NCBI RefSeq assembly: GCF_002369955.1
Contig: NZ_AP014564.1
Coordinates: 556,893-620,892 of the forward strand
Source: Ichthyobacterium seriolicida
Lineage (GTDB): Bacteria; Bacteroidota; Bacteroidia; Flavobacteriales; Ichthyobacteriaceae
Direction: 5' to 3'
DNA: 64,000 nt
The notes below the pieces were generated by a model. It did no database searches. It had not been told where the DNA came from and saw only the letters and a list, made by a program, of their open reading frames with translations. Positions 28,266 to 40,894 of this stretch are shown here, piece by piece; the stretch's first letter is position 1; each line of letters starts with the position of its first letter. Both the position numbers and the translations under genes were made by a program.

Positions 28266-28724
28266 AACCTGAGTTCGATTAATAAACCGAAATAAGAGAG
28301 GCATTACCGACGATTGGGTATTTGATAGAGGTTTTTTTTAGGCGAAAAGCTGTAAGCGATAAGTCCAGAAATAATATCGGTTAGAAAATTAGCAAAACAT
28401 ATATGTCTAGAATACTCTATCTGACAAATATTTTTAATCTGATCATTGATGGTCTATGATTGATCTCTTTCTGAGAAATAGTTTATCAAACATTGGCATG
28501 AGGGCATTTTTCATGTTATTTTTAACTGAGGTAATCAATTCTACGCCTCTTTCAAAGAGATTATTTCTTAAATCTTTGCTTATATCCTTTGTCACCAAAG
28601 AGTTTTCCAAATATTTTAGTCAAAAAACGCTCGTTTTTTAATGGCGTTCTATCATCTTCATTAGTCCTTGTGATGCAGAAATTTATTATTTCTCCTCGGT
28701 CGTTTGTGATGATATGAAGTTTAA
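28266..28724 (-). mobile_element. IS982-family element, relic
   Basis: The low end at 28266 is the inverted repeat AACCTGAGTTCGATTAATAA, followed by the 3' part of an IS982 transposase on the minus strand. The other end is lost where an IS1380 derivative starts at 28725. The same terminal repeat bounds the MITEs at 28938, 33278, 35831 and 62675, linking them to this family. 28156-28265, just before it, has no recognised feature. Confidence 0.75.
28306..28720 (-). pseudogene. IS982-family transposase, C-terminal remnant
   Basis: On the minus strand, KLHIITNDRGEIINFCI, TNEDDRTPLKNERFLTKIF and GKLFGDKGY are readable from 28720, followed in shifted frames by pieces of the family end (NNMKNALMP-like, ISGLIAY-like). 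These motifs are characteristic of IS982 transposases around the second and third catalytic acids. The N-terminal half is absent, and several stops and shifts interrupt the rest. A short plus-strand frame over the same bases (28456-28641) is its antisense shadow. Confidence 0.75.
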
Positions 28725-28935
28725 CCTGGATTATTCATAGTCGTATGAATTTTTTAGATAGAATCTATCGCTTTATCCAGTATTTATAAGTAGTCATTGA
28801 TGAACTCAGAGTTATAAATGGTATATTTTTATTCCTCATTTTTGGGCTATATCTAAAGTGGTTATTTTTGGTTGAAACCCTTTAAAAATAACCACTTTAT
28901 ATTCAAATTGAAATATAAACCATGAATAATCTGGG
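28725..28935 (-). mobile_element. Internally deleted IS1380 element (MITE-like, 211 bp)
   Basis: It begins CCTGGATTATTCATAGTC and ends TGAATAATCTGGG, the two ends of the 39236-40838 element, and is flanked by TTAA on both sides (28721-28724 and 28936-28939). About 100 bp next to the high end match the start of the transposase gene region of the full copy; the rest of the gene is gone. Confidence 0.8.
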
Positions 28936-28937
28936 TT

Positions 28938-29169
28938 AACCTGAAGTCGAGTAATAAAAACGCTTGGACCTTTTGAATTTATTGTAGTTTAAGATATTGC
29001 TGGTGTGGTCATTGGGGTCCTTTCGTATGCTTATGAGGTGATTTGGTGTAAACTTGATACTTTTTGCATAAAAACATCCTATTTATCACAAATATGAGCC
29101 TCTTAAATCTCAGTTAATTCAAGGCTTTTGATTACTTTAAGTAAGCAAATTATTAATCAAACTCAGGTT
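28938..29169. repeat. IS982-type MITE, 232 bp
   Basis: Terminal inverted repeats AACCTGAAGTCGAGTAATAA and, reversed, AACCTGAGTTTGATTAATAA bound a non-coding body resembling those at 35831-36061 and 62675-62905. It abuts the IS1380 derivative, sharing the TTAA. 29170-29258 has no recognised feature. Confidence 0.8.
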
Positions 29170-29258
29170 ATTAAGTTCTTCCATTTCTGTGGTTCTATTG
29201 TGAAATATTTTATTTACATCCATCAAATATTTTTTCCCTTCAAAAAAAACTTTTTTTT

Positions 29259-29405
29259 AAAAAAAATAACATTAATTTAGTTCCCTACTCATGTAGCGAA
29301 TGAGTACTTTGTTAGTTGTTAAATCTAATTAAATTTAAAAAAATGAAAAAAATGTTTAGAAATTTGTTAGCAATCCTAACATCAGGTGTTATTGGTTTCT
29401 CTTGT
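29259..29405 (+). repeat. Leader/signal-peptide cassette shared with 36071-36220
   Basis: The upstream region and first 21 codons of the lipoprotein gene are closely similar to those of the gene at 36158, with only scattered changes and a few short indels. The mature proteins are unrelated. A TAATTTAG near 29273 could be the -7 promoter element within the cassette. Confidence 0.75.
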
Positions 29406-30569
29406 GGAAAAGAGATTAATGAAAATAAAATAGCAGAGATTAAAAGTGTATCTTTCTTAGCAGAGAAAAACAAGGTTACTGTTGAAGGCAAACAAGACGT
29501 TAATGACTTGTTTAAAAGCTTATTCATTATAAAGACTCCTCAGAGAGAAATATCAGCATATACTAAAGAGCAAACAACGCTTAACTCAAAAATTACTATC
29601 GATCAAGGAGGTAATGTCTATGTAAAAATGCCATATAATACATTGTTAAACTTAACAACAGCTGGTACTCTTACTGCTACAATTATTTCTAAAAGTGCTC
29701 CAGGCACTAGTCCTACTACTTTGGATATACCTATTAGTATAGCAGCAAATGAGTTTACTCATCAAAAAATGACTGAAGGTGGTGTAGTAAAAAAACTTCC
29801 TAAGAAAATAGGAGATAAGGATATTGAAAAGGAGTATTCTATTACTTTTAAGTACGATAAAGATGCAGCTACATCAGCATCAGCTAATTGTGATCTTTTT
29901 ACTGGTAAAAATGCAAACGATCCAATTACCACCCTTTCTTTTACTAGAAATTATCGATATAAAAGTATGACGGGAGAGTATGCTATTGTTAATAATAGTT
30001 ATGTGTGTGAAAATGCCAGTGAGGGTTATGGAAAGTGTGCTAGTTTAAGTAAAACTTCTAAAGCTGTTACACCTGTGCTTACTACTGCATTAAATAGTAA
30101 AAATGGAAGTTCAGCACAAAATGCTATAGAAATGCATTTTGAGGGAGGGACCTTGACTAGTGATAAATCTTATGCTAAATCTAGCGATGGTGCTACTACT
30201 ACTATCAGTAACCCAGATAAATCGTTTGATATTGGGGTTGTACATGCTGATTTTAGTAGCGGTGAAGCATCTCAAAAAGTCTCAGAAAAAATCCAACATA
30301 AAAAGTTTACACTGCCGAATTTTGCGTTTATAGCTGATGGAGCTGTGCTTCCTGATGGGGCGTTTTTTAGTATTGAAGGGCTTACGGGAACTGATACTAC
30401 TACAGAAAAAACCACTCCTCTACATCCTAACAGAGGATTTAAGATAGATAATACAATACCTGGTAAAAATAAAGGTATAATCTTTAAAGTAGTAGCTCAG
30501 AATGGAACAAGCCAAAAGTTCTACAAATTAATATTCAAGAATAAGTTTACTTCTAGTACTACTTGGTAA
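29343..30569 (+). CDS. Lipoprotein of unknown function
   Basis: The 408-residue protein starts at ATG 29343 with a lipoprotein signal (MKKMFRNLLAILTSGVIGFSC, Cys21); an in-frame TTG 27 bp upstream is less likely. The mature part is predicted beta-rich. It begins KIAEIKSVSFLAEKNKVTVE, reminiscent of the repeated Ig-like or DUF5018-type modules of Bacteroidota lipoproteins. It ends with a YKLIFKN strand (QKFYKLIFKNKF), like the YRVIAVRA of the 22196 lipoprotein. No enzyme motif is visible. Its leader and signal peptide are shared with the DUF285 protein at 36158. It probably ends in the terminator of the IS1182 derivative at 30609. Confidence 0.7.
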   Translation: MKKMFRNLLAILTSGVIGFSCGKEINENKIAEIKSVSFLAEKNKVTVEGKQDVNDLFKSLFIIKTPQREISAYTKEQTTLNSKITIDQGGNVYVKMPYNTLLNLTTAGTLTATIISKSAPGTSPTTLDIPISIAANEFTHQKMTEGGVVKKLPKKIGDKDIEKEYSITFKYDKDAATSASANCDLFTGKNANDPITTLSFTRNYRYKSMTGEYAIVNNSYVCENASEGYGKCASLSKTSKAVTPVLTTALNSKNGSSAQNAIEMHFEGGTLTSDKSYAKSSDGATTTISNPDKSFDIGVVHADFSSGEASQKVSEKIQHKKFTLPNFAFIADGAVLPDGAFFSIEGLTGTDTTTEKTTPLHPNRGFKIDNTIPGKNKGIIFKVVAQNGTSQKFYKLIFKNKFTSSTTW

Positions 30570-30608: not shown

Positions 30609-30778
30609 GAAGCTGTCTCAAAACCGAGGCAGCTTTTTTTTGTTGGATCACATTCTTTGGCACACAATCTTCGAAAAAAGGTATCATAAAAAGTAATTTC
30701 CTTTTAAAAGGAAACAAAAATGTAGCGCTACATAACAAAAATTAAAAAACCGCCTCGTTTAATTAATGAGACGGCTTC
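30609..30778 (+). mobile_element. Internally deleted IS1182-type element (MITE-like, 170 bp)
   Basis: It has the same 12-bp terminal repeats as 2789-4415 (GAAGCTGTCTCA and, reversed, GAAGCCGTCTCA). Both end hairpins are present, as are the last codons of the transposase (AHNLRKKVS-stop near 30660-30690). All the rest of the gene is deleted. Confidence 0.8.
30610..30641 (+). terminator. Intrinsic terminator in the IS1182 derivative, downstream of the lipoprotein gene
   Basis: AAGCTGTCTC (30610-30619) pairs with GAGGCAGCTT (30626-30635) around AAAACC and is followed by a run of eight T. It lies 40 bp after the stop of the 29343 gene and is the inward-facing terminator of the IS end. Confidence 0.85.
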
Positions 30779-31046: not shown

Positions 31047-31898
31047 ATGACCATGTATTCAAACTTTAGTAAATTTATTTTAGGAGTGCTTCTTGCAAGT
31101 ATTACATTTTCTTGCATAAAGAAAAAATATATTACCGATAAACCAACCTCTAATAAGAGTTTAAAGGATACATCTTCTCCCCAATCTAAATCTGATTATA
31201 TTCTCGAGAAACTTCGAGCTTTTGTTGACGCCACTATTGAGGCAGATATTAGGGCTACTAAAGCTAGGACTAATGCAACTGTTGCAACTGCTTCAGCTAA
31301 GCCTAATATTTCTGATGCTCCAGCGTTTTCTATTTTTATATATTTCTGTGATAGTTATTCTACTAGAGAGATTACTAATTCTACTAAGGCCACTATCGCT
31401 AAAGTATCTGAGGCTAGAAAAGCTACTGAAATTGCTGAGGATAAAATTAATACTTCTAAAATTGCTATTGCCGCTGCTAAAATTGCTGCATATACCGCTC
31501 ATGATACGTATAAGGTTGAATCTAATACTAAGGAAATAGAGTCTAAAATTGCTATAGCTAAAATTAGCATTGACAAAGCTGCTGTTGCAGTTGATAGCGC
31601 TATTATTGCCGTCAATAATGCCGTTATTACCTCTAAAATTGCTTGTGCTGATGTTGAAACTGCTTTTACTTCTGCTAAAGTTGATATAAACTCCTCTAAA
31701 GCTGACCCTAGCGTTAAGACTACTACAAATGATTATATAAAATCTTACATCAATACAGCCAAGGGTATTATTGTCGCTAACAAAGCCACTCTTCTTACCT
31801 CCGAAGCTACTAAAAGCACCATTAAAAACGCTCAAATTAACATGAGGTATATCCAAAATGCTTTTGCTAAAAAAAAAGCTAGGTTCAAGACAACTTAA
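31047..31898 (+). CDS. Ala/Ile-rich coiled-coil lipoprotein, 3' end replaced by an IS1595 fragment
   Basis: The 283-residue protein has a lipoprotein signal (Cys23 in SITFSC). After about 40 residues it becomes Ala/Ile/Thr/Lys-rich with heptad-like periods (KIAIAAAKIAAYTAHDTYK, KIAIAKISIDKAAVAVDSAI), related in style to the giant lipoprotein at 22196, and ends in NAFAKKKARFKTT. The last codons and the stop (31880-31898) are IS1595 end sequence, so the natural C-terminus has been lost. It is not clear whether the truncated protein is made. Function is unknown. Confidence 0.6.
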   Translation: MTMYSNFSKFILGVLLASITFSCIKKKYITDKPTSNKSLKDTSSPQSKSDYILEKLRAFVDATIEADIRATKARTNATVATASAKPNISDAPAFSIFIYFCDSYSTREITNSTKATIAKVSEARKATEIAEDKINTSKIAIAAAKIAAYTAHDTYKVESNTKEIESKIAIAKISIDKAAVAVDSAIIAVNNAVITSKIACADVETAFTSAKVDINSSKADPSVKTTTNDYIKSYINTAKGIIVANKATLLTSEATKSTIKNAQINMRYIQNAFAKKKARFKTT

Positions 31899-32013: not shown

Positions 32014-33198
32014 ATGCAAGGTACAAAACACAAAATATTCAGTATAATACCAAATAGCGCTCTATTACTCTTTGCAAGCCTCTTTTTTTTATTTACCTCT
32101 TGTAAAAAGGAACAAACTATAAGTGATACTTCTGATAATACTGGATTAACTGATACTTCTGATAATACTGGATTAAAAAAGTTTATCACAAAATGGGAGA
32201 TTACAGATGGAAATAAGACTATCAAACTACCTATATATTCTGGTGGAACTTATAAATTTGATGTAGATTGGGGAGATGGAATAAAACAAGAAGTTACTTC
32301 TCATGATGACTTGGATGCTTCGCATACATATGCAGTAGCAGGTGAAAAAACTGTAACTATTACAGGAAAAATAGAAGGATTTAACTTCGGAAAGGTTTCA
32401 GATAGCAAGGATAAAATATTAGAGATATCAGATTGGGGTGAGTTGAAGTTAGGGAATAGTGTTGAATATACTGGAAAAGATGGTAATAATAACGATATTA
32501 CTGTGAATTTAGGATGTTTTCAAGAATGTACTAAGTTAGTAACTTTACCTTCAGAATCCCCTAACTTAGAGAAAGTTACTAATATGGTATCGATGTTTGC
32601 AGGGGCTACATCTTTCAACGGTGATATAAGTAAGTGGAATGTATCTAATGTTACTAATATGACATTGATGTTTGCAGGAGCTACATCTTTCAACGGTGAT
32701 ATAAGTAAGTGGAATGTATCTAATGTTACTGATATGACAGGTATGTTTGGAGGTGCTACATCTTTCAACGGTGATATAAGTAAGTGGAATGTATCTAATG
32801 TTACTAATATGGTATCGATGTTTGCAGGAGCTACATCTTTCAACGGTGATATAAGTAAGTGGAATGTATCTAATGTTACTAATATGGCATCGATGTTTGC
32901 AACTACTACATCTTTCAACGGTGATATAAGTAAGTGGAATGTATCTAATGTAACTGGTATGGCAACTATGTTTACAGGCGCTACATCTTTCAATCAAAAT
33001 ATAGGCAGTTGGAATATTTCTAATGTTACGGATACGTTTTTGATGATGTTTCATGAAGCTAGCGCCTTTTGTCAAGATTTAAGCTCTTGGAAAGTGCCAA
33101 GTGGTACTAGCATAGAACTGATGTTTCAAGATTCAGGAATGCCTTATAGTGATTCTCTTTCTGATAAGAGTAAGCATCCTACAGAAAAATCCGAATAG
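32014..33198 (+). CDS. DUF285 (BspA-like) repeat lipoprotein
   Basis: The 394-residue protein has a lipoprotein signal with lipid Cys30 (FFLFTSC), a short duplicated linker (SDTSDNTGLTDTSDNTGL), and a PKD-like domain at about 55-120 (FDVDWGDGIKQ, SHTYAVAGEKTVTITG). A cysteine-containing cap LGCFQECTKLVTLPSE precedes six 25-residue repeats of the pattern MFaGATSFNGDISKWNVSNVT (residues 194-343) and a diverged last one. These repeats are the DUF285 type used by surface proteins of Mycoplasma and Bacteroidota, often in adhesion to host or partner cells. The first five repeats are almost identical in DNA. The paralogue is at 36158. Confidence 0.88.
   Translation: MQGTKHKIFSIIPNSALLLFASLFFLFTSCKKEQTISDTSDNTGLTDTSDNTGLKKFITKWEITDGNKTIKLPIYSGGTYKFDVDWGDGIKQEVTSHDDLDASHTYAVAGEKTVTITGKIEGFNFGKVSDSKDKILEISDWGELKLGNSVEYTGKDGNNNDITVNLGCFQECTKLVTLPSESPNLEKVTNMVSMFAGATSFNGDISKWNVSNVTNMTLMFAGATSFNGDISKWNVSNVTDMTGMFGGATSFNGDISKWNVSNVTNMVSMFAGATSFNGDISKWNVSNVTNMASMFATTTSFNGDISKWNVSNVTGMATMFTGATSFNQNIGSWNISNVTDTFLMMFHEASAFCQDLSSWKVPSGTSIELMFQDSGMPYSDSLSDKSKHPTEKSE
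32593..33042 (+). repeat. Six tandem 75-bp coding repeats (DUF285)
   Basis: Units start at 32593, 32668, 32743, 32818, 32893 and 32968. The first five are nearly identical; the sixth has the NQNIGSWN variant typical of the paralogue at 36158. Units differ mainly in the last three codons. Confidence 0.92.
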
Positions 33199-33216
33199 TA
33201 TAATTAGTATTTGATA

Positions 33217-33250
33217 GCCGCTTGAGGTAAAATCCTCAAGCGGCTTTTTT
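33217..33250 (+). terminator. Intrinsic terminator of the DUF285 lipoprotein gene
   Basis: A perfect 11-bp stem (33217-33227 with 33234-33244), a 6-nt loop and six T lie 18 bp after the stop codon. Confidence 0.92.
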
Positions 33251-35765: not shown

Positions 35766-35830
35766 AGCTTATGATATATATGTTTACTAAATGTCAGTAA
35801 TAAAATCTTAAGGTTACTAAGATTTTTTAT

Positions 35831-36061
35831 AACCTGAGTTAGATTAATAATTCGTTTGGTGAAAATGCTTTAAAACTTTGAATTAACTGGTATTAAAGAT
35901 ATTAGTATTTGTGATAAATAGAATGTTTTAGTGCAAAAAGTGTCAAAATTCCATTAAATCACCTCATAAGTATAAAAGAACTCCAATAACTATGTTAGCA
36001 ACTTTTTAAATTACAATAAAATTAAAAAGATTCAAGCGATTTTATTAATGGAACTCAGGTT
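35831..36061. repeat. IS982-type MITE, 231 bp
   Basis: The ends AACCTGAGTTAGATTAATAA and, reversed, AACCTGAGTTCCATTAATAA bound a non-coding body of the common type. It lies directly upstream of the shared lipoprotein leader cassette at 36071. Confidence 0.82.
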
Positions 36062-36070
36062 AGGAGGTTA

Positions 36071-36220
36071 TTAAAAAAATAACATTAATTTAGCTATCTA
36101 CTCAACTCATGTAGTAAAAGAGTATCCTACTTATTGTTGCATTTTAAATCTAAAAAAGTGAAAAAAATGTTTAGAAATTTGTTAGTAATGCTAACATCAG
36201 GTGTTATTGTTTTCTCTTGT
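36071..36220 (+). repeat. Leader/signal-peptide cassette shared with 29259-29405
   Basis: Upstream bases (AACATTAATTTAG onward) and 21 codons are closely similar to those of the 29343 gene. The start codon is GTG (36158) where the other copy has ATG. Confidence 0.75.
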
Positions 36221-37351
36221 GGAAAAGAAACTGATAGTGAAAAAGAGACTGATAAAAATAAAATAAGTGATACCTCTGGAAAAAAGTTTATTTCAAAATG
36301 GAATGTTAATGGAGATACCAAAATAGTATTACCTATATATCAGAGAGGGAAATACGACTTCACTGTAGATTGGGGAGATAATACAGGAAAGCAAAAAGTT
36401 ACTTCTTATAATGACTCTAATGCAAATCACACATATACAACAGGGGGTGAAAAAACTATAACTATTACAGGAAAAATAGAAGGTTTTAACTTCGGAAAGG
36501 TTCCACATAGCAAGGATAAAATATTAGGTATATCAGATTGGGGTGATCTGAAATTAGGGAATAGTGTTCCGTATACTATAAGACATAATAATGAAGATAT
36601 TACCCTAAATTTAGGATGTTTTCAAGGATGTACCAAGTTAGTGACTTTACCTGTAGAAGCACCTAATTTAGAAGGGATTACTAGTATAGCCAGTATGTTT
36701 TTTGGAGCAATAACTTTTAATCAAGACTTAAGTAATTGGGACGTATCTAAGGTTACTGGTATGAATTGGATGTTTTGCTCTGCTACAGATTTCAATAGTG
36801 ATATAAGCAAGTGGATTGTATCTAATGTTACGGATATGAGATTTATGTTTAAAAGTGCTACATCTTTCAACGGTGATATAAGTAATTGGAATGTTTCTAA
36901 GGTTACCAATATGGAATCGATGTTTTATGACGCTAAATCTTTCAATCAAAATATAGGCGATTGGACTGTATCTAATGTAACTGATATGAAAAGTATGTTT
37001 TATGACGCTACAGCTTTCAATCAAAATATAGGCGGTTGGACTGTATCTAATGTAACTGATATGAGAGGTATGTTTTATGGTGCTAACTATTTCGATCAAA
37101 ATATAGGCAGTTGGAATGTTTCTAATGTTACAGATATGAGCTTTATGTTTTTAAACGCTAAATCTTTCAATCAGAATATAGGCAGTTGGAATGTTTCTAA
37201 TGTTACGGATATGAATTCGATGTTTAGAGGTGCTACAAGGTTCAATCAGAATATTAGTGGATGGCAAATACATAACAGTAATGCAATGACTGATATGTTT
37301 CATGGAGCTACATCAATGACCGAAGACTATAAACCTAAATCAGGAAACTAG
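36158..37351 (+). CDS. DUF285 (BspA-like) repeat lipoprotein with borrowed leader
   Basis: The product has 397 residues from GTG 36158, or 394 from ATG 36167. The signal peptide (MFRNLLVMLTSGVIVFSC, lipid Cys21 from the GTG) is that of the unrelated lipoprotein at 29343. The mature part is paralogous to 32014: a PKD-like domain (FTVDWGDN, NHTYTTGGEKTITITG), the KIEGFNFGKV junction, the LGCFQGCTKLVTLP cap, then eight 25-residue DUF285 repeats plus a partial ninth. Repeats here are more diverged than in 32014, mostly the NQNIGSWNVSNVTDM type. It is probably a surface adhesin-like protein. No terminator is evident before the IS256 fragment at 37386. Confidence 0.86.
   Translation: MKKMFRNLLVMLTSGVIVFSCGKETDSEKETDKNKISDTSGKKFISKWNVNGDTKIVLPIYQRGKYDFTVDWGDNTGKQKVTSYNDSNANHTYTTGGEKTITITGKIEGFNFGKVPHSKDKILGISDWGDLKLGNSVPYTIRHNNEDITLNLGCFQGCTKLVTLPVEAPNLEGITSIASMFFGAITFNQDLSNWDVSKVTGMNWMFCSATDFNSDISKWIVSNVTDMRFMFKSATSFNGDISNWNVSKVTNMESMFYDAKSFNQNIGDWTVSNVTDMKSMFYDATAFNQNIGGWTVSNVTDMRGMFYGANYFDQNIGSWNVSNVTDMSFMFLNAKSFNQNIGSWNVSNVTDMNSMFRGATRFNQNISGWQIHNSNAMTDMFHGATSMTEDYKPKSGN
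36695..37294 (+). repeat. Eight 75-bp coding repeats (DUF285), diverged
   Basis: Units begin at the ATG of each MF start: 36695, 36770, 36845, 36920, 36995, 37070, 37145 and 37220, with a partial ninth at 37295. The exact 75-bp period has no indels. Confidence 0.9.
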
Positions 37352-37385: not shown

Positions 37386-37754
37386 GACACTATCGCGTAA
37401 AGTGTGTAAAGTTTCTATTTAGGATAAAAATCCTAGATATTTTTTAAAAAAAACTAATTAAAACTTTATACAAATGAAAAAAGAAGATTTGTTAAAAGAT
37501 GAACTCTTAAGACAATTCAAAATAAGAGAAGATCTAATGTCATTTCTAAAAGATATTTAAAGACGAGGTATTGAAAAGATTCCAGAAGGGGGAATTAGAT
37601 TCACATTTGGATTATTCTAAATATGAGCAATCAAAGAATACAAATTTTCGCAATGGATATTCTACAAATAATGTTAGGACATCATTAGAAGAGAGCAAGA
37701 TTAAAGTTCCAAGAGATAGAGATTCTTCTTTTAATCCTATGTTAACCCCTAAAC
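37386..37754 (+). mobile_element. IS256-family element, left fragment (369 bp)
   Basis: It starts with terminal repeat GACACTATCGCGTAAAGTGT and contains the first part of a transposase gene (ATG 37475, stop at 37558, then EGGIRFTFG-type shifted frames). It is cut by the start of a second, longer copy at 37755. The overlapping bases of the two copies are about 93 percent alike by eye. Confidence 0.85.
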
Positions 37755-39097
37755 GACACTATCCTGTAAAGTGTGTAAAGTTTATATTTAGGAAAAAAAA
37801 TCCTAGATATTTTTTAAAAAAAACTAATTAAAACTTTATACAAATGAAAAAAGAAGGATTTATTAAAAGATGAATTCTTAAAACAATTCAAAACAGGAGA
37901 AGATCTCGATGTCATTTCTAAAAGATATTCAGAGACGAGGTATTGAAAAGATTCTAGAAGGGGAATTAGATTCACATTTGGATTATTCTAAATATGAGCA
38001 ATCAAAGAATACAAATTTCCGCAATGGCTATTCTACAAAAAATGTTAGGACATCATTAGGAGAGAGCAAGATTAAAGTTCCAAGAGATAGAGATTCCTCT
38101 TTTAATCCTATGTTAATCCCTAAACGCAAAAATATGGCAGAAGGATTAGAAAATATAATCATCAGTTTTTATGCCAAGGGGATGAATAATTCAGACATAG
38201 AGGATCAAATACAAGAGTTATACAATTTTGATATTTCTACATCTACCATATCCCGTATCACAGATAGAGTGACAAATGATATCATAGCCTGGCAAAATAG
38301 ACCTCTAGAGCCTGTATATTTGATAGTTTGGATGGACGCTATAGTATTCAAGGTTAGGGAGAATTCCAAAGTGATCAACAAGAGTATGTACATCGCTATT
38401 GGCCTTGGTAGAGATGGAAAAAAAGAAGTATTAGGCTTATGGTTAGGGAAGAATGAATCCTCTGCATTTTGGATGAGCGTATTAACAGATCTAAAGGCTC
38501 GAGGAGTTGAGGATATACTTATCACAGCTACGGATAATTTAAATGGCTTTACCCAAACTATAAAAAATGTATTTCCTGAATCTACAAACCAAATATGTGT
38601 AGTACATCAAATCAGGAATTCAAGCAGATATGTAGTATGTAAGGATAAAAAGACGTTTTTTAATGACATGAAATCAAATATACAATTCCCCTACTAAACA
38701 ATCAGCTGAGGCTGCCCTAAATGACTTTGCAAAAACATGGGAATCTAAGTATTCCTATGCTGTTAAAAGCTGGCGAGATAACTGGGAGGAACTGTCTGCT
38801 TTTTATGAGTTTCCCGTAGAAATCAGGAAAATTATTTACACGACCAATTTGATTGAAAACCTCAATGGAAAAATCAGAAAGTATACCAAAAACAAATTGT
38901 CATTCCCAACTGATGATGCTGTTATGAAATCTACTTTTTTAGCTCTGAGGGAGGCTACAAAAAAATGGTCTAAACCCATACCAAATTGGGGAATAATTTT
39001 GAATCAATTTTTAACTATTTTTGACCAAAGAGTTCGACTATGAATAAAAACAAAAAAATATGTCATTTTTTAGTTACACACTTTACGCGATAGTGTC
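37755..39097 (+). mobile_element. IS256-family insertion sequence, degenerate full-length copy
   Basis: The length is 1343 bp. The left terminal repeat GACACTATCCTGTAAAGTGT and right repeat (reversed) GACACTATCGCGTAAAGTGT are complete. The transposase is frameshifted. The right border cuts an IS1595 end. No matching target duplication is seen at the outer borders, consistent with the composite history. Confidence 0.88.
37844..39043 (+). pseudogene. IS256-family (mutator-type) transposase, frameshifted
   Basis: ATG 37844 runs only nine codons before a shift. The main part reads from 37909 (FLKDIQRRGIEKILEGELDS) through the catalytic Asp of PVYLIVWMDAIVFKVRE and the second Asp of ILITATDNLNGFTQTIKNVF to a shift at about 38685. 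The last part ([40 protein letters not shown] with the catalytic Glu) continues in another frame to 39043. All DDE residues are present, so inactivation is by two frameshifts only. Confidence 0.88.
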
Positions 39098-39193: not shown

Positions 39194-39235
39194 CTTTTTA
39201 TGTTTTCTTTTAAACTTAAAAGTTCCAATAATTAA

Positions 39236-40838
39236 CCTGGATTATTCACAGTCATATTAAAATAGATTAAACCTGATATTTTTTTCATTAACTTTTTTAC
39301 TAATCAAAAAAAACTCGTCTTCTTTGTAGTTTTTTTGCACCATTTTTTAACACGACAATGATCTTTTTTAGTGTTTTTACGTGGTTTTTTAACGACAGAA
39401 CGTAACTATCCCAAGGTTATTCATTTCACAAATAAACAACCGCTACTGGGTAATAATTTCCCGAAATAAACCTTGTAAACAAAAGATTTAGATAACTGGT
39501 AATAGATTCGCCTTTTGGTAATTTTAATCGTTGCTCTTACCTTCAAAAGATAAGTTCTAATTGAACTGATTAACCATTTTTTTGCTACTTCAAATCTTGT
39601 TTTCTTTATCTTCTGTTTCAGTAATAAAAACATTTCATAGGCAAGACTACTTATCATAAGTCGAAAAAAATTAGCAAGAAAACTATGATTTGACAAACGA
39701 TCAGAAAAACACATATTTTTAACTTCTTTTATTCTATTTTCACTTGAATCACCTCTTTTAACATAAAAGTCAAAGTAAATTTTTCTAGCATCCTTTTGGG
39801 GAATATTACTAGAAAAATGCCTTATGTTCATACCTAATCCAGTACTCTCAACTTTAGAATAGCACTGTTGAGGCTTGTGCCAACTCTTGGCTTTGTACGT
39901 AAAACTCATAAAATGTTGGTGCTTCTCTCCCTGATCTAAATACATTTTTTTTACAGCATTTTTTGACCGAGATACCTTTCTTTTTAAAACTTTATTGCTC
40001 GCTATGCCTGTAACATATAGTAAATCAAAATCATCTACTAATTGGTAAAAAGCGGCGCAGCTAAAGCCGCTATCACTTCTAATAATTATTTCCATCTCTG
40101 GGTAACTCTCACGTATTTTGATAATTATTCGCTTTAAAATACTCACATACCATTTATTGGAATGACTGTTTCCTGGGCGGAGTACAGGAAGAATAATCTG
40201 TCGTGGTGTCTCCATCATGAAAAAATAGTTCATTGTACATGAATTGACCATAATAACCATTAAACATTGACAATTGTTGACTGCCATGAGTTGGATCATC
40301 GGTTGAATCTACGTCAATAACTATTTTCTTGCGATCAGATAAACTTGAAACATATTTGTATAACCACGCATAACAAAACTTAAAAACAGCCTGTTTGTCA
40401 AAGCTATTCTCAAATCTTGATATAGTAGGTTGAGAGGCCAAATCACCTTGAAGAACATCTTTTAATAAAGGATCATTCTGTAAATGATTAACATCATTGG
40501 CGTCTTCATAGCCTAACATGATCATATAAACCCTTTGTTTTAACTGTTGCTTTCTGGTATAAGTAACAAATCTAGAGTCTCGGGCATCAGGCAAAAGTTT
40601 ACTGTAATAATCAATCAATTTATGATCTCGTTCTAGTTTTTCAAGCATGATTAAGGATCCATCAGAGCTAATTTCTGATGATGAAAAAGTTAACTCAACA
40701 GATTTTCTCCCTCTATAAAATAATGTGTTTTTATTCCTCATTTTTGGGCTATATCTAAAGTGGTGAATTTTTGGTTAAAACCTTCTAAAATTAACACTTT
40801 ATGCCTAATATTAACAATATATCTATGAATAATCTGGG
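39236..40838 (-). mobile_element. IS1380-family insertion sequence, copy 1
   Basis: The length is 1603 bp, with inverted ends CCTGGATTATTCA and, reversed, CCCAGATTATTCA, flanked by TTAA on both sides (39232-39235 and 40839-40842), which looks like a target duplication. It holds one frameshifted transposase gene on the minus strand. Confidence 0.88.
39421..40741 (-). pseudogene. IS1380-family transposase, single frameshift
   Basis: From ATG 40741 the frame gives an N-terminal region (TLFYRGRKSVELTFSSSE), the first catalytic segment KKIVIDVDSTDDPTHGSQQL and FNGYYGQFMYNELFFHDGDT. Near 40190 the frame shifts by one base. The continuation reads ILPVLRPGNSHSNKWYV, IIIRSDSGFSCAAFYQLVDD and KRGDSSENRIKEVKNMCFSD with the catalytic Glu, down to 39421. 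Family motifs DxDxTDDPTHG and LRPGN are clear. Only one lesion is seen, so the copy died recently or uses frameshifting; the former is more likely. Confidence 0.88.
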
Positions 40839-40894
40839 TTAAATCCTAATAAAATCAAAGGGTTTGAGTGATTTATTAATCGAACTCAGGTTAA

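Follow-up and report, generated by a model that had tools for sequence, protein, structure and literature searches.

The lipoprotein gene at position 36158 of the window (the whole 64,000-nucleotide stretch of the Ichthyobacterium seriolicida genome analyzed here) is a chimera, in which the 5' end of one lipoprotein family is joined in the tether to the body of another, the DUF285 family. We consider it probable that this gene is a within-genome recombinant and one visible case of a general exchange of segments among DUF285 genes and the genes of a paralogous family without a Pfam name, for which BODY is our working name. We propose that the 5' end of a BODY gene (leader, signal peptide, and tether codons) would have been joined to a DUF285 body in the tether just past the lipobox, as part of a process in which BODY and DUF285 genes would swap segments along their whole length through gene conversion and unequal crossing-over. 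An occasional crossover at the signal peptide or tether would then pair the expression and export signals of one family with the exposed domain of the other. The genes named 29343, 32014, and 36158 carry their window positions.

The chimeric gene and its junction

The features on which the comparison rests are the following:

36070 to 36266, forward strand: transferred cassette with leader, start codon (GTG at 36158 or ATG at 36167), signal peptide, and ~15 mature codons (genome search and alignments)
36263 to 36280, forward strand: junction zone between the cassette and the DUF285 body, with few bases common to both sides (alignments and direct reading)
36280 to 37351, forward strand: DUF285 body of the chimeric gene (Pfam, profiles, and alignment)
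32014 to 33198, forward strand: DUF285 lipoprotein gene with its own, different 5' end, whose DNA matches the 36158 body better than that of any other gene compared (Pfam and alignments)
29150 to 29342, forward strand: leader, the putative promoter region, of the 29343 gene, of which only about 29259 to 29342 is common to 36158 (alignments)
29343 to 29405, forward strand: signal peptide with the lipobox FSC of the 29343 lipoprotein (reading and translation)
29406 to 30569, forward strand: mature part of the 29343 lipoprotein, BODY family, without a Pfam family above cut-off (Pfam and profile searches)

An earlier reading of the sequence alone had proposed that the bases before and through the signal peptide of the 29343 gene are repeated before the DUF285 gene 36158. 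Pairwise DNA alignment bears this out, with 83.1% identity across 160 nt (-83/-85 to +71 relative to the start codon), and an independent search of the genome recovered the same likeness at 82% (E value of 1.3e-35). Both ends of this match are sharp. It does not end before the leader, as it includes ~85 nt of non-coding DNA in which the promoter presumably lies. The DNA shared through the signal peptide is therefore real, but its right edge had been set too short: the lipobox Cys of 36158 is encoded at 36218 to 36220, and the cassette likeness continues for ~15 codons beyond it, to about 36266. Two further cassette genes resemble 36158 over a longer distance, namely 1885941- (84.3% over 172 nt, reaching +79) and 43655+ (78% over 193 nt, reaching +109). 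Signal peptides are constrained in composition, which could favor an explanation of the common leader and signal peptide by shared regulation or convergence, without any recombination. Such an explanation would have to account for a 160-nt match at 83% identity that ends sharply on either side, and convergence of the signal peptides is impossible because the ~85 nt of non-coding leader is common to 36158 and 29343 as well; we give it practically no weight.

Downstream of the junction, the mature part of 36158 is a DUF285 protein (Pfam PF03382, E value of 1.1e-98, 325.8 bits against a curated cut-off of 25). Its body matches 32014 at 77% over 717 nt from window position 36280, as the sequence-only reading had noticed, and 1354616- at 81% over 223 nt, likewise from 36280; a stretch of ~16 bases common to 36158 and 32014, read by eye, begins at 36263. 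Since the cassette likeness stops at ~36266 and the DUF285 likeness starts at 36263 or 36280, the junction is placed at 36263 to 36280, in the tether. The 32014 protein itself scores 253.5 bits with PF03382, above the cut-off of 25. Its 5' end differs from that of 36158 and is weakly common to 1354616- (79.7% over 59 nt), in a pairwise comparison that disregarded the uninformative pairs with three truncated genes (1572130-, 1475919-, and 994893-). The proposed chimera is thereby upheld, with a sharp junction and a cassette found on 12 BODY genes and on this one DUF285 gene.

We infer that the join is illegitimate because there is little common sequence at the junction. In a tree of nine cassettes, 36158 stands beside 43655+ (support of 82/88) inside a BODY clade, while a DUF285 tree left the positions of 36158 and 32014 unsettled and thus did not identify the nearest body, or donor, of 36158. 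With a cassette that differs by about 16 to 17% from the most similar cassettes, the event is not recent, and 36158 is too diverged from both of its relatives to be an assembly error.

A special form of the recombination proposed above would be a fusion by deletion, in which a BODY gene followed by a DUF285 gene, arranged like 29343 and 32014, would have been duplicated and the copies subsequently have lost the DNA from tether to tether. 29343 and 32014 follow each other in this order on one strand, separated by 1.4 kb and a single gene, one deletion would yield the arrangement of 36158, and the junction has few bases in common with either side. However, the 3' flank of 36158 does not resemble that of 32014, and the nearest cassette in the tree is that of 43655+, not that of 29343. 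We regard this particular route as possible but rather doubtful.

The surroundings of these genes contain further elements. A Mutator-type element (Pfam Transposase_mut) at window positions 37386 to 39097, its gene split in two frames, begins ~35 nt past the stop codon of 36158; its 24-nt end repeat stands at 37386 and recurs in reverse at 39097, and 37755 to 37850 holds a partial duplicate. Between the BODY gene 29343 and the DUF285 gene 32014, a low-complexity lipoprotein-like gene without a Pfam match occupies 31047 to 31898. Strong terminator-like stem-loops follow 32014 (33216 to 33245) and 29343 (30609 to 30636). The 3' flank of 32014 has matches in five other sampled stretches with DUF285 genes, and 3' ends may therefore be common too.

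Distribution of the cassette

A search of the genome, a single contig of 1,921,407 bases, with window positions 29259 to 29405 as the query found the cassette at 13 places rather than two, all of them heading open lipoprotein genes. Twelve of the 13 encoded proteins are related to each other over most of their length (about 25 to 82% identity) and belong to the BODY family; the 36158 protein matches the other 12 only over 26 to 54 N-terminal residues. Hence, two mature families stand behind the cassette, BODY in 12 cases and DUF285 in one. The view that the DUF285 gene was the recipient of the cassette, already held in the sequence-only reading, is supported because the cassette heads 12 BODY genes and only one of 35 DUF285 open reading frames (ORFs), 36158 itself.

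The best Pfam match of the 29343 protein (E value of 0.027) is below cut-off, the fold model of BODY is of moderate confidence (pLDDT of 66.9), and a search of the PDB with this model gave no match at an E value of ≤0.001. Among 39 other genomes of the order, none had a convincing cassette; 18 of the 39 gave just AT-rich matches of 21 to 54 nt around the ribosome site and start codon, which we take as chance. A BODY profile hit one of 296 genomes of the order, its own (0 of 295 others), and a search of genome_contigs confirmed no BODY relative. In that collection, the best match of the genome's GlyRS, a protein from Flavobacteriaceae, is 71% identical, which speaks against a near relative there.

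The leader and its inverted repeat

Nine of the 13 cassette copies have the leader, with a mean column identity of 74% across the nine aligned leaders. In the remaining four (248516-, 249791-, 251083-, and 244017-), the match starts at the ribosome site; these copies are all inside a minus-strand tandem array whose first cassette gene, 252384-, has the leader. Because the leader is absent from the four internal genes and present on the first, this distribution suggests that it acts as a promoter, which at 252384- would serve the array. The leader likeness reaches about -150 to -193 in six copies (from -193 between 29343 and 1885941-) and ends at -80 to -88 in 36158, 43655+, and 252384-, where a miniature element (MITE) abuts.

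One short motif of the leader is conserved:

29286 to 29306, no strand assigned: inverted repeat of the TACTCAT-N7-ATGAGTA type (genome pattern search and leader alignment)

The core pattern of this repeat has eight exact matches in the genome, all of them in cassette leaders; in the ninth leader it occurs with one mismatch. Its arms pair in 87.5% of cells, compared with 22 to 44% when slid against each other, and no covariation was found in the arms of the nine leaders, in which changes tend to break pairing. The absence of compensatory changes, together with the pair-breaking ones, speaks against an RNA hairpin in the leader. As the arms pair without covarying, the repeat would fit a DNA operator better, and an operator is possible. 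Matches to sigma-70-like sites were not in excess (45 versus 47.7 in shuffled sequences), and an Rfam search of the window returned two tRNAs only.

MITEs at the left edge of the cassette

The sequence-only reading had placed a MITE before both copies of the cassette in the window, and the repeat analysis agrees:

35830 to 36062, forward strand: MITE-A, bounded by 21-nt terminal inverted repeats and placed immediately to the left of the 36158 cassette (repeat analysis)
28937 to 29170, reverse strand: copy of MITE-A before the 29343 leader (repeat search)
28718 to 28942, no strand assigned: MITE-B with 24-nt terminal inverted repeats, adjoining the MITE-A copy at 28937 to 29170 (repeat analysis)

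Both elements (233 nt for MITE-A and 225 nt for MITE-B) are short, with inverted ends and many copies, as expected of MITEs: MITE-A occurs at at least 42 places in the genome (40 of the 143 first candidates scored) and MITE-B at at least 45 (40 of 194 scored). By eye, no target-site duplication was evident at the MITE-A copy at 35830 to 36062.

It had also been suggested that these repeats may drive the exchange, and the leader cassette could have been brought to the DUF285 body by transposition of a MITE or an insertion sequence (IS), or through recombination between MITEs. A MITE abuts the leader in three of the nine leader-bearing copies (36158, 43655+, and 252384-), and seven of the nine leader-bearing genes have one ≤260 bp upstream, whereas only 31 of the 173 genes called in the sample do. 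However, these copies are not independent: MITE-A has a like position in 29343, 1885941-, 1137918+, and 686208+, which points to one old insertion copied along with the gene. Moreover, MITEs are common in this genome, and direct reading of the body junction of 36158 revealed neither a MITE end nor an IS end. Movement by such elements is thus an improbable origin of the chimera; MITEs mark the left edge of the cassette and do not explain the join.

Two observations concern the elements themselves. At window positions 39232 to 40842, a transposase-like gene in two overlapping minus-strand frames (39421 to 40299 and 40154 to 40741) sits between two MITE-B end matches (39232 to 39260 and 40728 to 40842), and for this reason MITE-B is probably a deleted form of the IS at this place. 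Two oppositely oriented MITE-A copies flank the BODY gene 1137918+ (genome positions 1137491 to 1139463), possibly a composite mobile unit.

Recombination along the genes

A jumping alignment of the 88 genes with a recognized lipobox, the set to which the scan for discordant neighbors described below was also restricted, gave 289 parent switches in 81 genes. Near the lipobox Cys (≤60 nt away), switches occurred at 0.071 per gene per 30 nt, and elsewhere at 0.070. Mosaic structure was also analyzed in 54 aligned BODY genes of >1,000 nt without Ig-like repeats, in which 133 switches were found at a jump cost J of -24 versus 18 after one column shuffle per gene, and 66 versus 1 at the stricter cost of -40; with five shuffles per gene, the null was 0.30 switches per gene, and since column shuffling also erases regional rate differences, part of the excess may not be recombination. 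At jump costs of -16, -24, -40, and -60, the rates per kb were 2.78, 2.31, 1.39, and 0.77 near the Cys versus 3.53, 1.90, 0.92, and 0.47 elsewhere. The mild excess near the Cys at the two strictest costs, which rests on 9 and 5 events, is not counted as a hotspot, and the switches are not concentrated at the signal peptide. Recombination is pervasive along these genes, and the cassette is one outcome among many.

These data bear on the suggestion of the sequence-only reading that surface proteins could be exchanged behind a common expression signal. In its strong form, a dedicated cassette-swapping or phase-variation system would move a promoter-signal peptide unit before alternative surface proteins. 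The several leader-bearing copies, the repeated reassortment of 5' ends and bodies, and the conserved inverted repeat in the leader would all be in keeping with such a system. Nevertheless, (i) the switch density at the lipobox Cys is about equal to that elsewhere, with at most the mild excess given above, (ii) 12 of the 13 cassette copies keep the BODY family, (iii) nine separate leaders each precede their own gene, in place of one expression site, and no silent bodies were identified, and (iv) the 36158 cassette is not a recent acquisition, given its divergence. We find such a system very improbable. The cassette is no dedicated swapping unit because the parent switches are not concentrated at the signal peptide, and a dedicated swapping cassette was rejected on the spread of breakpoints over whole genes. 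What stands of the idea is that 5' ends and bodies have repeatedly been reassorted in the past, as an occasional outcome of general recombination; neither a dedicated mechanism nor a switching one is supported.

Other chimeras in the lipoprotein repertoire

The wider repertoire was sampled in 29 targeted stretches and the window (288,527 bases in total), to which two more stretches were added later. The first sample held 67 BODY and 35 DUF285 ORFs, fragments included, none of them with both domains, and the later stretches added two BODY genes. Overall, the genome carries some 70 BODY genes and some 35 DUF285 ORFs, and many of these form tandem arrays. Profiles built for this study distinguish three modules: BODY, DUF285, and an Ig-like repeat.

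A signal peptide class beginning with MKSKILLFYLF heads genes that end in DUF285, e.g., 1423232+, 1772137+, 1774271+, and 1892289+. Three genes located inside a BODY array (21273-, 24558-, and 28860-) are chimeras of the reverse kind, with a signal peptide of this class and two Ig-like repeats as in DUF285 genes, followed by BODY. The DNA before the start of 21273- is of the type of the neighboring BODY array (94% over 79 nt to 22529-). With 36158 joining a BODY 5' end to DUF285 and these three joining DUF285-type 5' ends to BODY, exchange between the two families has gone in both directions. Truncated remnants of the MKSKILLF signal peptide class were also seen at 841139+ and 844017+, the first closely followed by a transposase gene.

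Within the DUF285 genes, 1041959+ resembles 1030796+ at 92% over -147 to +78 and 1021944+ at 93% over +51 to +900, the two segments overlapping at the lipobox. It lies in a duplicated DUF285 lipoprotein cluster (genome positions 1014000 to 1044500) with near-identical copies and several fragments, and such near-identical tandem copies at 1014 to 1044 kb could contain assembly errors. This gene is a fresher chimera of two DUF285 classes, which we infer to have formed through homologous crossover at the common lipobox. Likewise, 1486610- and 1477057- share 35 to 41% identity at -210 to -91 and 96 to 100% at +30 to +509; their identity is down to 63 and 58% at +570 to +689, and a further similar patch lies beyond. 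In the scan of the 88 genes for neighbors that disagree between the 5' end and the body, many such cases were found.

Comparison with known systems and significance

The nearest described system is that of the erp genes (ospE/ospF/elp) of Borrelia burgdorferi. According to the passages cited, conserved promoter/operator DNA, a leader peptide, and the first mature residues precede mature parts of independent origin, with frequent recombination, and the genes occupy one allelic locus on cp32 prophage plasmids with several unrelated body families (PMC10016077, PMC12018966, PMC9060444). The lipoprotein genes studied here resemble them, as far as those passages describe them, in the conserved non-coding upstream DNA and leader peptide (nine leaders and 13 signal peptide regions), but differ in lying at 13 places on one contig and in heading one family with a single cross-family exception.

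DUF285 domains have been described as PARCEL elements that are found in surface lipoproteins, for which recombination between ORFs was proposed (PMC2996958). Both 36158 and 32014 carry PF03382 like these proteins, whereas the passages cited of that account do not mention that 5' ends are traded with a lipoprotein family of another kind (PMC2996958). In the Bacteroidota symbiont Cardinium cCpun, the cited passages report expanded DUF1703 paralogues with pervasive intragenic recombination (PMC6387759), similarly an expanded and recombining paralogous family; it is, however, another family, and those passages describe neither lipoproteins nor a re-pairing of leaders and bodies. Rearrangement of surface-protein domains is known from Porphyromonas, as stated in the passage cited (PMC5266723). 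Chimeric surface lipoprotein genes within one family, with switching, are described in passages on Vpma of Mycoplasma agalactiae (PMC5634654) and MBA/UU172 of Ureaplasma (PMC3047005). As these passages have it, Vpma and MBA switch by site-specific inversion, Vpma around one promoter, and no such arrangement was seen here; in place of a single promoter with silent bodies, as in Vpma, this genome has nine leader copies, every one followed by a gene of its own. A literature search of titles and the first parts of abstracts found no description of the present case, which is no proof of absence.

Altogether, the pairing principle is already known from the Borrelia erp genes, and recombining surface antigens are known from mycoplasmas. 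Our best reading is an expanded lipoprotein repertoire shaped by ordinary recombination and gene conversion, comparable in kind to the Borrelia erp genes, with BODY and DUF285 lipoproteins that would lie on the cell surface. A bolder view would be that the ~100 genes serve as one shared reservoir, where gene conversion keeps forming new pairs of leader-signal peptide units and exposed domains and thereby varies the expressed surface between cells or strains; we hold this to be unlikely. One genome shows how expression and export signals can come to precede other exposed domains, with two large lipoprotein families each having acted as giver and as receiver. Such re-pairing needs no dedicated mechanism, and the junctions reported here are concrete places at which current exchange may be tested.
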